Of a stretch of DNA of 64,000 bases, positions 60,567-64,000 are shown in pieces. The stretch covers positions 124,001 to 188,000 of the forward strand of contig JAAYJS010000018.1 of assembly GCA_012522805.1 (NCBI GenBank). Direction: 5' to 3'. How positions within the stretch are numbered: position 1 is the stretch's first letter; each line of letters opens with the position of its first letter. Source of the DNA: Eubacteriaceae bacterium. Its GTDB lineage: Bacteria; Bacillota; Clostridia; Eubacteriales; Eubacteriaceae. Position numbers and translations under genes: made by a program. The notes beneath the pieces were generated by a model. That model saw only the letters and a list, made by a program, of their open reading frames with translations. It ran no database searches and was not told the origin of the DNA.

Positions 60567-60839
60567 ATGAAAAATAAACGATTGGTACGGAATAAAAAAC
60601 GGGGCTTGATCTCCGGTGTTTGTCAAGGGTTGGGAGAATATTTTAATCTTTCGCCCTTTATTTTTAGAGGCGTCTTTTTAGCACCTTTTTTACTGTGGTT
60701 TTCCATCGGGTTTTTGAGTTTGTTCAGCGCTGGCATTTACATACTTTTGTCAAGCGTTTTACCCGATATCGAGGATATTGACGCCAACGCCATAGAAAAT
60801 GTGGAATACGAAGTATTGAAAGATGACGATGAACAATAA
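60567..60839 (+). CDS. PspC domain membrane protein
   Basis: A 90-residue protein. RLVRNKKRGLISGVCQGLGEYFNLSPFIFRGVF is the PspC signature, followed by one or two hydrophobic segments (about residues 35-63) and an acidic tail. Such proteins sense envelope stress, often with PspA/LiaF. It follows the aminotransferase stop immediately and overlaps tsaE by 17 bases. Confidence 0.93.
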   Translation: MKNKRLVRNKKRGLISGVCQGLGEYFNLSPFIFRGVFLAPFLLWFSIGFLSLFSAGIYILLSSVLPDIEDIDANAIENVEYEVLKDDDEQ

Positions 60840-61266
60840 TTTTCAAACTTTTTATAGCGAAAATGCCTATGCTACCTATGCTTTAGGAATCGAAATCGGT
60901 AGAAACCTGACCGATCACATCGTCCTTTTAAAAGGCGATATGGGTGTGGGGAAAACCTTGTTGACCAAGGGTATCGTCAAAGGCTTGGAATTAACCGACG
61001 ACGTGACAAGCCCCACCTTCGCTTTGGTCAATGTCTACGATCAGGGCGCCAAACAGGTGTATCATTTCGATTTATACCGTCTAACGGATCTCGACGAATT
61101 GTATGAAATAGGTTTTGATGACTACTTAAAGGGCGATGGCATCGTCATCATCGAATGGCCGGAACCGGTGGAGCCTTATCTGGAACCGCCCTTGTTGTGC
61201 ATTGAAATCGAAAACCCCGACCATCAGGATACACGGCGCATCACATTGAAGGGAATGAATCTTTAA
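60823..61266 (+). CDS. tsaE: tRNA threonylcarbamoyladenosine biosynthesis ATPase TsaE
   Basis: A 147-residue P-loop ATPase that works with TsaB and TsaD to form t6A37. Walker A is LLKGDMGVGKTLLTKG, SPTFALVNVYD and YHFDLYRL are conserved, and IVIIEWPEPVEPYL supplies the catalytic Trp/Glu region. TsaB and TsaD are not in the window. Starts at 60823 or 60829 are both possible. It completes the transcript yerC-aminotransferase-pspC-tsaE-ispD. Confidence 0.95.
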   Translation: MTMNNNFQTFYSENAYATYALGIEIGRNLTDHIVLLKGDMGVGKTLLTKGIVKGLELTDDVTSPTFALVNVYDQGAKQVYHFDLYRLTDLDELYEIGFDDYLKGDGIVIIEWPEPVEPYLEPPLLCIEIENPDHQDTRRITLKGMNL

Positions 61267-61269
61267 AAT

Positions 61270-61971
61270 ATGAAAGAACCGTTTATCAGTGTGATTATTC
61301 CCGCAGCCGGACAGAGTAGTCGCATGCAAACCGCTATCAACAAACAATACCTATCCGTTAAAGGCCGCCCCCTGCTTTATTATACGTTAAAGCCCTTCGA
61401 AGCCATTAAGGGGATCGATGAGATCATCGTTGTCACCGGCAAAAGAGAACAGAAATTTTGTCAGAAAAATGTGATCAACCGTTACCGTTTTAAAAAAGTC
61501 AAAACGGTTCTGGGTGGCAACACCAGACAGGCATCGGTGTATGCGGGGTTAAAGGCTGTGGATCCACGATGCCAAATGGTCGTCATCCATGACGGTGCGC
61601 GCCCTTTGGTAACGGAAAAAATAATTGTGGACAGCATCGAAGCGACCAAAATTCACAAAGCGACCATTGTGGCTGTACCGGCTAAAAATACCATTAAAAT
61701 GATTAAGCGAGAGAACTTGGTGGACTACACCCCTAATCGGAATTTGATGATAGAGGTGCAAACCCCCCAAACCTTTGACTATTCATTGATACGCCATGCC
61801 CATGAAAAAGGATTGGAGGAAGGTACTGTAGCCACAGACGATGCCTTTCTTTTAGAGCGCTTAGGCTATCCGATTAAAATAGTCCGCGGTCATTACAACA
61901 ACATCAAAATTACCACACCGGAGGACTTGCTCGTGTTGGAAGCCATGATCGATTTGAAAGGAAATCCGTAA
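61270..61971 (+). CDS. ispD: 2-C-methyl-D-erythritol 4-phosphate cytidylyltransferase
   Basis: A 233-residue nucleotidyltransferase of the MEP isoprenoid pathway. The CTP loop is IIPAAGQSSRMQTAINKQYL; VVIHDGARPLV and VEVQTPQTFDYSLI are family motifs, and ATDDAFLLERLGYPI binds MEP. It follows tsaE by three bases. The downstream E2-like gene has its own strong ribosome site and may continue the transcript. Confidence 0.96.
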   Translation: MKEPFISVIIPAAGQSSRMQTAINKQYLSVKGRPLLYYTLKPFEAIKGIDEIIVVTGKREQKFCQKNVINRYRFKKVKTVLGGNTRQASVYAGLKAVDPRCQMVVIHDGARPLVTEKIIVDSIEATKIHKATIVAVPAKNTIKMIKRENLVDYTPNRNLMIEVQTPQTFDYSLIRHAHEKGLEEGTVATDDAFLLERLGYPIKIVRGHYNNIKITTPEDLLVLEAMIDLKGNP

Positions 61972-62005
61972 ACGTGGCATCAACCGTCGAAGGAGGACAA
62001 AACCA

Positions 62006-63427
62006 TTGAAAAAAAACCAAAACGTGGCGTATTTTAAAATCAGTAAAAAACCCACAGACATAAGAATCGCCGCCGGAAAAATCATCAAAAATGACATTCC
62101 ACAAAGAAAAATCTTTGTATCTGAAAATCTCACAAATATGGCATCAGCCTCCGGGGACGACAGCATGATGACCAGCACCGAACAATCTCTGAGAGAGTTG
62201 GTGGAAGACCTGAAGAGATTGGATGAACAGGAGACAGGGTTTGATTTAAAGACCTATAGCGACGTTCACATCTCTCCCTTGGCGAAAAAAATTGCGGAAG
62301 TTGAAGGATTGGCATTGGAGGATATCCCCTTAACCTCAGGGAGAATCGAAAAAAAAGATGTGCTCCGGGTGCTGGAGCTGAGGGAGGCCGGTCTGCTCAG
62401 TGAAAAACAAGAAGCCGGCAATGCGTTAGAACCGGAATCGCTTTTGCCATTAAAGGCAAAACCGGCAACGCCGCCGATGGTTCAGCCGGAAAAACAACCG
62501 GAAGAGCCTGTTCAATCAACCGGAGAAGTGAGCGGCAGCTCCATCCAAGAGCCAACTCAGAACAGCGAAGAAAAGAGCAGCTCCCCTCGGCATGCGTCGG
62601 AGTCTCTAAAAAAAACAGATGCGCAACCCCAAGCGGTCCAAGAGAATAAAAAGCTTGACCGCACCGATTCTATTGCCGAAGAGACACAACCGGAACCGGA
62701 GCACACCGCTCCCACAGAAAAGGCAAAAGAGGATGGGTGCTTACGGAATGTGCAAGGATACAACGAGAAGAACTTGGAGGAAAAAACCATGCTTGAAGCC
62801 CAGTCGCCTATCATTCGATTGATGACGGAAGTGGACATGACGGAAATCAAAGAATTGCGCAAACGCATTTCCAAAAAAATAGAGGTAGAAACCGGTGTCA
62901 AATGTACCTTTACCGATTTTTTGTTGATGAGCGTGGCAAAGGCTTTAGTCGAAAACCCTCAGCTCAACGGTTATTATGACGATTTTCAAGAACAAATCGT
63001 TCTATATGAAGGCGTTCAACTGGGTTTGTCAGCCTTAGGAGACAAGGGCAATACGATTTTCCCGACGATCAAAAACGCAGAGGATTTAAGTTTTACGCAA
63101 ATGATCATAGCTCGCAACGACTTATTGTGGCGAGCTAAAAAAGGTGAACTCGCTGAAACAGAACAAGACCCGAGCTTTGCCATTGTCAACTTAGGCATGT
63201 ACGGAATACTGGAGTTTTCATCCAGAATACAGGATGGTAATGCCGCCGTACTTTCTGTAGGAAAGGTGGTCGATCGCATTCGCATGGTTGGCAATGAAGA
63301 ATCTCTCCGGGCGATTATGCGATTGAATTTCAATTTGGATACCAGAGTCTGCGACGGCATCATCGGTGCGCAGTTTTTAAAAACCGTCGTCGACACTATG
63401 GAAAACCCTGCGGTTCTCCTGTTTTAG
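62006..63427 (+). CDS. E2-like acyltransferase-fold protein without lipoyl domain or catalytic His
   Basis: A 473-residue protein related to 2-oxoacid dehydrogenase E2 subunits. Residues 1-85 contain no lipoyl domain (no DKA-type loop). Residues 86-125 are a peripheral-subunit (E3)-binding domain, HISPLAKKIAEVEGLALE then SGRIEKKDVLRVLE. Residues 135-250 are a Pro/Glu/Ser/Thr-rich linker. Residues 265-473 are the catalytic-type domain: ITEVDMTEIKELRKRISKK region, TFTDFLLMSVAKALVENPQLNG, and the final FNLDTRVCDGIIGAQFL. There the canonical DHRxxDG is DTRVCDG, with Thr446 for the catalytic His; Asp450 stays. The TTG start follows AAGGAGG. An E3-like gene follows 15 bp later. It probably builds a scaffold rather than transferring acyl groups. 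Confidence 0.82.
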   Translation: MKKNQNVAYFKISKKPTDIRIAAGKIIKNDIPQRKIFVSENLTNMASASGDDSMMTSTEQSLRELVEDLKRLDEQETGFDLKTYSDVHISPLAKKIAEVEGLALEDIPLTSGRIEKKDVLRVLELREAGLLSEKQEAGNALEPESLLPLKAKPATPPMVQPEKQPEEPVQSTGEVSGSSIQEPTQNSEEKSSSPRHASESLKKTDAQPQAVQENKKLDRTDSIAEETQPEPEHTAPTEKAKEDGCLRNVQGYNEKNLEEKTMLEAQSPIIRLMTEVDMTEIKELRKRISKKIEVETGVKCTFTDFLLMSVAKALVENPQLNGYYDDFQEQIVLYEGVQLGLSALGDKGNTIFPTIKNAEDLSFTQMIIARNDLLWRAKKGELAETEQDPSFAIVNLGMYGILEFSSRIQDGNAAVLSVGKVVDRIRMVGNEESLRAIMRLNFNLDTRVCDGIIGAQFLKTVVDTMENPAVLLF

Positions 63428-63442
63428 AATGTGGAGATAAAA

Positions 63443-64000
63443 ATGCAAGTAAGTCGAAAAAAATACGATGTCGTTGTTATCGGTGGTGGCATCGCCGGTA
63501 TTTATACCGCTATCTCCGTAGCGGAAAATGGATTTTCCGTGCTCATCGTAGAAGAAAACCCGTTGAGTGAAGGCAATTTTTTAAACAAAGAATACGATTT
63601 TCAGTATTTATATGACCTGACTTTAACCCTCAGCGACGTACAAAACAAAAAGCGGGACGGCATTCAACTCAAAGAAATGTCGCTGCGCTTTGATAAATTG
63701 GCGGAAAACAAAAAAGCAAAAAAAGAAGCTTTGATCGCGGCGATACGCGATCGACTGGCTTCTCTGGGTGTGGAAGTCCTTCAAGGCTTTGCTCAAATGC
63801 TGGATAATTCTCGTATTGACGTGCACCACCAAGGTCGGTCCACAGGGCTTTACGCAAACAATGTCGTCATCGCTACGGGTTGCAAATCTGTTCTTAAGGA
63901 ACAATTTGCCGCTGTACCGGGCCTGACGACATTAGAAGAACTATTTTCCATGATGAAAATACCCGGAGAGTTGCTTCTCATCGGTGGTGGGATTAAAGCC
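63443..64000 (+). CDS. Dihydrolipoyl dehydrogenase-like flavoprotein lacking redox cysteines (partial)
   Basis: The first 186 residues of a FAD/NAD-linked reductase of the E3 family, cut by the window end. The FAD motif is DVVVIGGGIAGIYTAISVAENG (Gly14-Gly19), VLIVEENP ends the second strand, NNVVIATGCKS is the ATG motif, and ELLLIGGGIKA begins the NAD domain. Where E3 has GTCLNVGC, this protein reads GNFLNKEY, with Phe46 and Tyr51 for the two disulfide cysteines at the exact five-residue spacing. Dihydrolipoamide oxidation by the normal mechanism is therefore impossible. GGAGA precedes the ATG. The rest of the gene, including the E3 C-terminal His-Glu pair, is not visible. Confidence 0.82.
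   Translation, partial: MQVSRKKYDVVVIGGGIAGIYTAISVAENGFSVLIVEENPLSEGNFLNKEYDFQYLYDLTLTLSDVQNKKRDGIQLKEMSLRFDKLAENKKAKKEALIAAIRDRLASLGVEVLQGFAQMLDNSRIDVHHQGRSTGLYANNVVIATGCKSVLKEQFAAVPGLTTLEELFSMMKIPGELLLIGGGIKA

Follow-up and report, generated by a model that had tools for sequence, protein, structure and literature searches.

An E2-like and an E3-like gene of the pyruvate dehydrogenase type lie side by side at the end of the 64,000-nucleotide stretch of Eubacteriaceae DNA analysed here (the window), and the locus raises the question of whether two neighbouring genes that have lost their lipoate chemistry are decaying or have been kept for another purpose. The first-pass annotation of the window had favoured the latter, holding that the losses are not random decay and that a pyruvate dehydrogenase-type complex has been reused. 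The features of the locus are as follows.

60823..61266, + strand: tsaE, conserved upstream neighbour (PF02367, synteny)
61270..61971, + strand: ispD, upstream neighbour throughout the family (PF01128, synteny)
61990..61997, + strand: ribosome-binding site AAGGAGGA of the E2-like gene, with the TTG start 8 bases further on (sequence)
62006..63427, + strand: E2-like gene, 473 aa, TTG start (ORF, ribosome-binding site, Pfam, orthologues)
62264..62365, + strand: peripheral subunit-binding (E3-binding) domain, residues 87-120 (PF02817, alignment, pLDDT about 80)
62783..63421, + strand: E2 acyltransferase core, residues 260-472 (PF00198, AlphaFold2 pLDDT about 90, Foldseek)
63185..63187, + strand: Val394 in place of the catalytic Ser/Thr, which is Ser558 in A. 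vinelandii (alignment, 52-residue spacing to the His position)
63341..63343, + strand: Thr446 in place of the catalytic His, turning DHRxxDG into DTRVCDG (alignments)
63443..64000, + strand: E3-like gene, in-window part, start at ATG 63443 or GTG 63431 (ORF; Pfam Pyr_redox_2, Pyr_redox_dim)
63572..63595, + strand: GNFLNKEY replacing the redox disulfide motif GTCLNVGC (alignment)

The two genes and their lost residues

In Pfam searches, the E2-like core matched 2-oxoacid_dh at 1.4e-40, and the match to E3_binding (1.5e-4, 22.3 bits) fell just under the cut-off of 23.7, with one subunit-binding domain kept out of the usual two. No Pfam match to Biotin_lipoyl (PF00364) was found in the E2-like protein, the four such matches of the genome lying elsewhere. 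Its N-terminal stretch contains no known domains, and the linker between the subunit-binding domain and the core is predicted to be disordered. AlphaFold2 modelling with 15 family sequences gave a confident core (pLDDT about 90), and the solved structures nearest to the core model in Foldseek are E2 cores. The core motif reads NLDTRVCDG. The His and Ser used by canonical E2, His610 and Ser558 in the A. vinelandii protein and named in the titles of PDB entries 1dpb and 1dpc, are 52 residues apart, and Thr446 and Val394 of the window protein have the same spacing; the catalytic His of DHRxxDG and the catalytic Ser/Thr are thus both replaced. In the alignment, 51 core residues do not vary among 13 canonical relatives, and the window protein retains 31 of them. 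The 20 lost residues fall mostly in the active-site region (H446T, N409Q, Q410D, P411G, I407R, T392A, and S389P), with a second cluster in the N-terminal RxxIAxRM helix. Pfam and the alignments agree with the first description of the protein as an E3-binding domain plus a catalytic-type fold with DTRVCDG and no lipoyl domain, and they add the losses of the Ser equivalent (V394), the RxxIAxRM helix, and P411G.

For the E3-like gene, ATG 63443 has a better-placed GTGGAG than GTG 63431. Reading past position 64000, as had been suggested at first pass, reveals that the frame continues intact to a stop at window-equivalent position 64765 (444 aa counted from the GTG). Directly after it comes a terminator, a strong hairpin (z = -6.3) and a run of T, and nothing essential stands between this terminator and the E3-like gene. 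The FAD motif (GGGIAG) and the ATG motif are retained and both redox cysteines of CxxxxC are absent, as originally read from the window. Beyond that reading, the third Gly of the NAD motif is lost (GxGxxG to GxGxxA), as is the Asp of the second FAD motif (GD to GS), and the C terminus is shortened and without its His-Glu dyad; Pyr_redox_2 and Pyr_redox_dim are found alongside these changes. A frameshift concealing a normal E3 C terminus was rejected, as no other reading frame downstream encodes one. The structure model of the E3-like protein, built from four sequences only, was poor (pLDDT 52) and was set aside.

The E2-like and E3-like genes are 15 bases apart (to ATG 63443). The tsaE, ispD, E2-like, and E3-like genes look like a single transcript because the gap between ispD and the E2-like gene is 34 bases and contains no strong promoter match.

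The window ispD (61270-61971) is retained though neither DXP synthase (DXS) nor DXP reductoisomerase (DXR) was found in the genome, and IspD may therefore be either an orphan or serve another cytidylyltransferase reaction. DXP reductoisomerase was found in G004, G012, G018, G022, and G025 (E. callanderi group), in G009 and G034, and in several other families of the order; a full-length DXP synthase was found in none of those genomes, complete ones included, which gave only transketolase-like partial matches. The idea that the E1 of the locus, which follows ispD, stands in for DXP synthase in genomes without one was rejected for the window genome because DXR is also absent and no E1 is present at the locus.

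A fixed locus with differing losses across the family

The window genome is a draft of 2.02 Mb in 47 contigs (97.8% complete). Its contig C16 carries a canonical operon encoding E1a, E1b, an E2 with a lipoyl domain and DHR, and an E3 with a lipoyl domain and CxxxxC; the E1 of this operon is the only one found in the genome, and E1 is missing from the window locus. According to the first-pass annotation, a nearby second copy with a lipoyl domain would mark the pair as simple degenerate paralogues. A normal copy does exist. The window E2 core, however, shares just 28% identity with the C16 E2, as against 42-49% with the orthologues of the E. callanderi group, so the pair did not arise as a degenerate duplicate of the C16 operon; synteny likewise rules this out.

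The gene order tsaE-ispD-[E1a-E1b-E2-(E3)]-(guaB)-guaA recurs in each of the nine genera sampled for the family. By synteny and sequence, the window pair is orthologous to the four-gene operon at this fixed locus and is the remainder of it, the E1 genes being missing in the window genome only. The named carriers are Eubacterium callanderi, E. barkeri, and E. aggregans and Acetobacterium woodii, A. bakii, A. tundrae, A. paludosum, A. fimetarium, A. dehalogenans, and A. wieringae. An initial contig scan with the window E3-like protein as the query gave no relatives, and an E2 search suggested operon loss in four genera. This loss was rejected, since E3 and E1a searches find the operon there, with an E2 too diverged to be detected, and extend it to all nine genera. 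The E1a search gave a match in 38 of 40 genomes across the family, that of the window genome being its C16 copy.

Normal motifs throughout the operon were found in the E. callanderi group only, and eight of the nine genera keep the locus with its lipoate chemistry lost. The first-pass annotation had held that normal DHR and CxxxxC motifs in close relatives would point to local mutation or sequence error; such a case is confined to that one group. The lipoyl domain, the E2 His, and the E3 Cys have been lost by differing routes in differing lineages. In Acetobacterium, E. barkeri/E. aggregans, and further genera, the lipoyl domain, the E2 His, and the E3 Cys are eroded or lost and the frames are mostly intact. 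In Acetobacterium, the locus keeps E1 and lacks an E3 gene, and its E2, mostly devoid of a lipoyl domain, carries DHR, DRR, DRQ, DQR, or DHQ; G009 and G034 retain the lipoyl domain, with the motif DHQ. In E. barkeri and E. aggregans, E1 is kept, the E2 has DSR and no lipoyl domain, and the E3 lacks one cysteine. The E1 active site is intact in most Acetobacterium, in E. barkeri/E. aggregans, and in genus g6; genera g3, g4, g7, and g8 have additionally lost active-site residues of E1, the E1b His among them. G021 has no E2 core, and its subunit-binding domains form one protein with E3. Two fragmented assemblies (G013 and G014), in which E2 is split or broken by unread bases, were left out of the judgement. 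In the E2s that are most heavily eroded, the subunit-binding domains are the best-preserved part (1e-13 to 1e-30); GDG...NN of E1a and the FAD motif of E3 are also preserved in relatives. In several genera, E3 and guaA adjoin or overlap. Among these loci, the window genome is the extreme case.

The G021 fusion (L137, 6793-9009) is a 739-aa protein with two subunit-binding domains and an E3-like protein but no E2 core. The E2 linkers of Acetobacterium (L039-L058, L067-L084) are long, acidic, and strongly variable between species, with a constant core length; the total E2 length is about 430-690 aa and reaches 866 aa in G009/G034.

An RpoB tree placed Acetobacterium outside all others and did not separate the window lineage clearly from either the E. 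barkeri or the E. callanderi side. Grouping the window lineage with the E. barkeri side was not rejected (p=0.45), and grouping it with the E. callanderi side was marginally rejected (p=0.046). The window protein, E. barkeri, and G007 have in common P411G, the loss of the E2 His and Ser/Thr, the loss of the first E3 cysteine, and the Gly-to-Ala change in the E3 NAD motif; because of these shared changes, a single loss in their common ancestor is possible, with a separate loss in Acetobacterium.

Selection on the operon and competing explanations

The dN/dS ratios of close pairs of relatives, calculated by the Nei-Gojobori method, were 0.03-0.11 for E1a, 0.02-0.10 for E1b, 0.06-0.19 for the E2 core, 0.13-0.29 for the whole E2 (the highest in the operon), and 0.05-0.11 for E3, with reference values of 0.01-0.10 for guaA and 0.06-0.18 for ispD. 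In the pair G011/G017, whose E1, E2, and E3 all lack their catalytic residues, the values were 0.035 for E1b and 0.046 for E3, versus 0.042 for guaA. The operon genes are under purifying selection wherever this was measurable, and these low ratios, well below the value near 1 expected of neutral evolution, indicate that they are not pseudogenes in those genera. The dN/dS values come from relatives only, and the window pair itself is presumably under purifying selection as well. Both of its frames are open, over 917 codons together, so that the frame disruption expected of pseudogenes is absent from both genes, and its codon usage is inside the range of the window genes and above off-frame controls. 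By a rough estimate, the neutral gain of 20 changes at invariant core residues would be accompanied by about 26 stops in the two genes. The terminal branch of the window protein in the E2-core tree is 1.7 times that of guaA, and the ratio for E. callanderi is 1.6, both from single-gene trees with long branches.

A sequencing or assembly error, to which the draft state of the genome in 47 contigs might have pointed, is effectively refuted by the comparative data, since the frames are open over the whole length of both genes and similar losses are found in many independent assemblies, including single-contig genomes. A slowly decaying relic is a more serious alternative, albeit an unlikely one: the complex would have lost its use once pyruvate:ferredoxin oxidoreductase took over, and its frames would persist because they lie inside an essential operon, where a broken frame may be polar. 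Such decay fits the repeated and differing losses across many lineages, the missing E1 and missing second subunit-binding domain of the window genome, the absence of the E3 gene in Acetobacterium and of the E2 core in G021, and the whole-E2 dN/dS, which tops the operon. However, E1 and E3 proteins without catalytic residues have the same dN/dS as guaA, and polarity favours open frames, not conserved amino acids. Nor can polarity explain the open frames in the window genome, because the terminator directly follows the E3-like gene.

The intact E1 active site in most Acetobacterium, E. barkeri/E. aggregans, and g6, together with the partly retained FAD and NAD-domain motifs of E3, would suit a new catalytic use, in which E1 with thiamin diphosphate and the E3-like flavoprotein perform lipoate-free 2-oxoacid or electron-transfer chemistry on the E2 scaffold. 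This is improbable, given that the E1 active site is lost in four genera (g3, g4, g7, and g8), that E1 is missing at the window locus, and that the window E3-like protein has neither the FAD-binding Asp nor the C-terminal dyad. Still harder to sustain is a role of the pair as accessory subunits of the C16 complex, in the manner of the mitochondrial non-catalytic protein X (E3-binding protein). The genome does contain a canonical complex, and an E2 that lacks the His and carries a subunit-binding domain is similar to protein X (6h60, E=1.7e-15), but the window core shares only 28% identity with the C16 E2, and no other E2 was detected in the genomes of E. barkeri, A. tundrae, A. paludosum, and A. 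fimetarium, which carry inactive versions. Protein X, moreover, retains a lipoyl domain.

Known relatives and the possible role of the remaining complex

The window pair resembles the pyruvate/acetoin dehydrogenase (E1a, E1b, E2, and E3) found at the same locus in the E. callanderi group in its gene order, E2 core, subunit-binding domain, and E3 fold, but it lacks the lipoyl domain, the E2 His and Ser, both E3 cysteines, and an E1 at the locus. Members of the pyridine nucleotide-disulfide family without the disulfide are known, e.g., the SthA-type transhydrogenases, which have the E3 fold and lack one or both redox cysteines; these stand alone as enzymes, whereas the window E3-like gene adjoins an inactive E2. 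The actinobacterial 2-oxoglutarate dehydrogenase E1/E2 fusion (OdhA) shares an E2 core without its own lipoyl domain, and OdhA-type entries are among the matches of the window E2-like protein. OdhA, however, keeps the catalytic His and receives lipoyl groups in trans from another E2. The protein X of mitochondrial and fungal pyruvate dehydrogenase complexes is likewise a non-catalytic E2 homologue with a subunit-binding domain (PDHX; PMC10156792, PMC7494870). The window E2-like protein has this same combination of a non-catalytic E2 core and a subunit-binding domain, with its own lipoyl domain absent; protein X works within an active complex, whereas at the family locus the partner E3, and often E1, is inactive too.

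Free-standing lipoyl proteins of 78 aa are present in Acetobacterium and in E. barkeri/E. aggregans, and none was found in the window genome or G031. A supply of lipoyl groups in trans was rejected as a general answer because of this absence and because the E2 His is lost in many carriers anyway. The 78-aa lipoyl domain (ATDKIS) lies in a recurrent operon with an AcoR-like activator, a LipB-like octanoyltransferase, a short-chain dehydrogenase, and an AMP-ligase with a carrier domain, which recurs in L104, L109, L110, L111, and L113 and was read over its full length in L106 (258-5855, A. paludosum) and L112 (E. aggregans); the window genome lacks it. Another kind of free-standing lipoyl-like protein, of 79 aa with an ETEK motif, occurs in L105, L107, and L108 (A. 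paludosum and A. woodii) and in one case adjoins a lipoyl synthase-like gene. A. woodii, a species in which deletion mutants have been constructed, also has a separate pyruvate/acetoin dehydrogenase cluster, Awo_c01690-01720, that is strongly induced in a metVF mutant (PMC10472528); the available portion of that report makes no mention of the ispD-gua locus.

The persistence of the locus without lipoate chemistry in eight of nine genera suggests that the complex has probably ceased to serve as an enzyme and is maintained for another job. The comparative evidence, namely this persistence and the purifying selection in relatives, thus strongly favours the original proposal of reuse over random decay, and that proposal is borne out in part; the electron carrier, compartment-like scaffold, and sensor it named are candidate functions. 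On balance, we favour by a modest degree the reading that the window pair is the surviving half of a 2-oxoacid dehydrogenase-type operon and now forms a non-catalytic, lipoate-free assembly, either a scaffold or a ligand sensor. Lipoate chemistry was given up in every genus except the E. callanderi group, and the parts needed for assembly remained under selection, namely the subunit-binding domains, the folds of E1 and E3, the motifs that bind cofactors, and the E2 core of most genera. Because the subunit-binding domains, together with GDG...NN of E1a and the FAD motif of E3, are kept best, the selected trait may be an assembly that keeps E1-like and E3-like proteins together, rather than acyl transfer. 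The E2-like protein would oligomerise via its core, its subunit-binding domain would hold a dimer of the E3-like flavoprotein, and the E1-like and E3-like proteins would probably still bind their cofactors. In the window genome the E1 half has been dropped from the locus, and what remains would be an E3-like flavoprotein carried on an E2 core. The assembly could act as a scaffold or as a sensor of bound nucleotide or flavin, a role picked by elimination and one that seems the most economical reading of these sequences. Against the scaffold or sensor reading, the subunit-binding domain of the window protein scores under the Pfam cut-off and E1 is gone from the locus, and late decay fits these two observations too.

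More tentatively, and at somewhat less than even chances, the entire E1a-E1b-E2-E3 complex may have turned family-wide into a conserved lipoate-free pseudo-enzyme complex with a structural or regulatory role, of which the window pair would be the most reduced form. Such a role is perhaps tied to GMP synthesis, because in several genera guaA follows the operon directly; this coupling is speculative and is suggested by gene order only.

Lone inactive paralogues of metabolic enzymes are common. To our knowledge, a complete 2-oxoacid dehydrogenase operon whose lipoate chemistry has disappeared in several lineages of one family, with subunit dN/dS as low as that of GMP synthase, has not been described, and the open-access literature yielded nothing relevant on a lipoyl-less or pseudo pyruvate dehydrogenase in acetogens. 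The genes of this locus are likely to be named pyruvate dehydrogenase E1 or E2 in genomes where the locus cannot give that activity, which calls for caution in annotation. The locus raises the question of what job such a complex has apart from acyl transfer, which can be tested in cultured acetogens such as A. woodii and E. barkeri.
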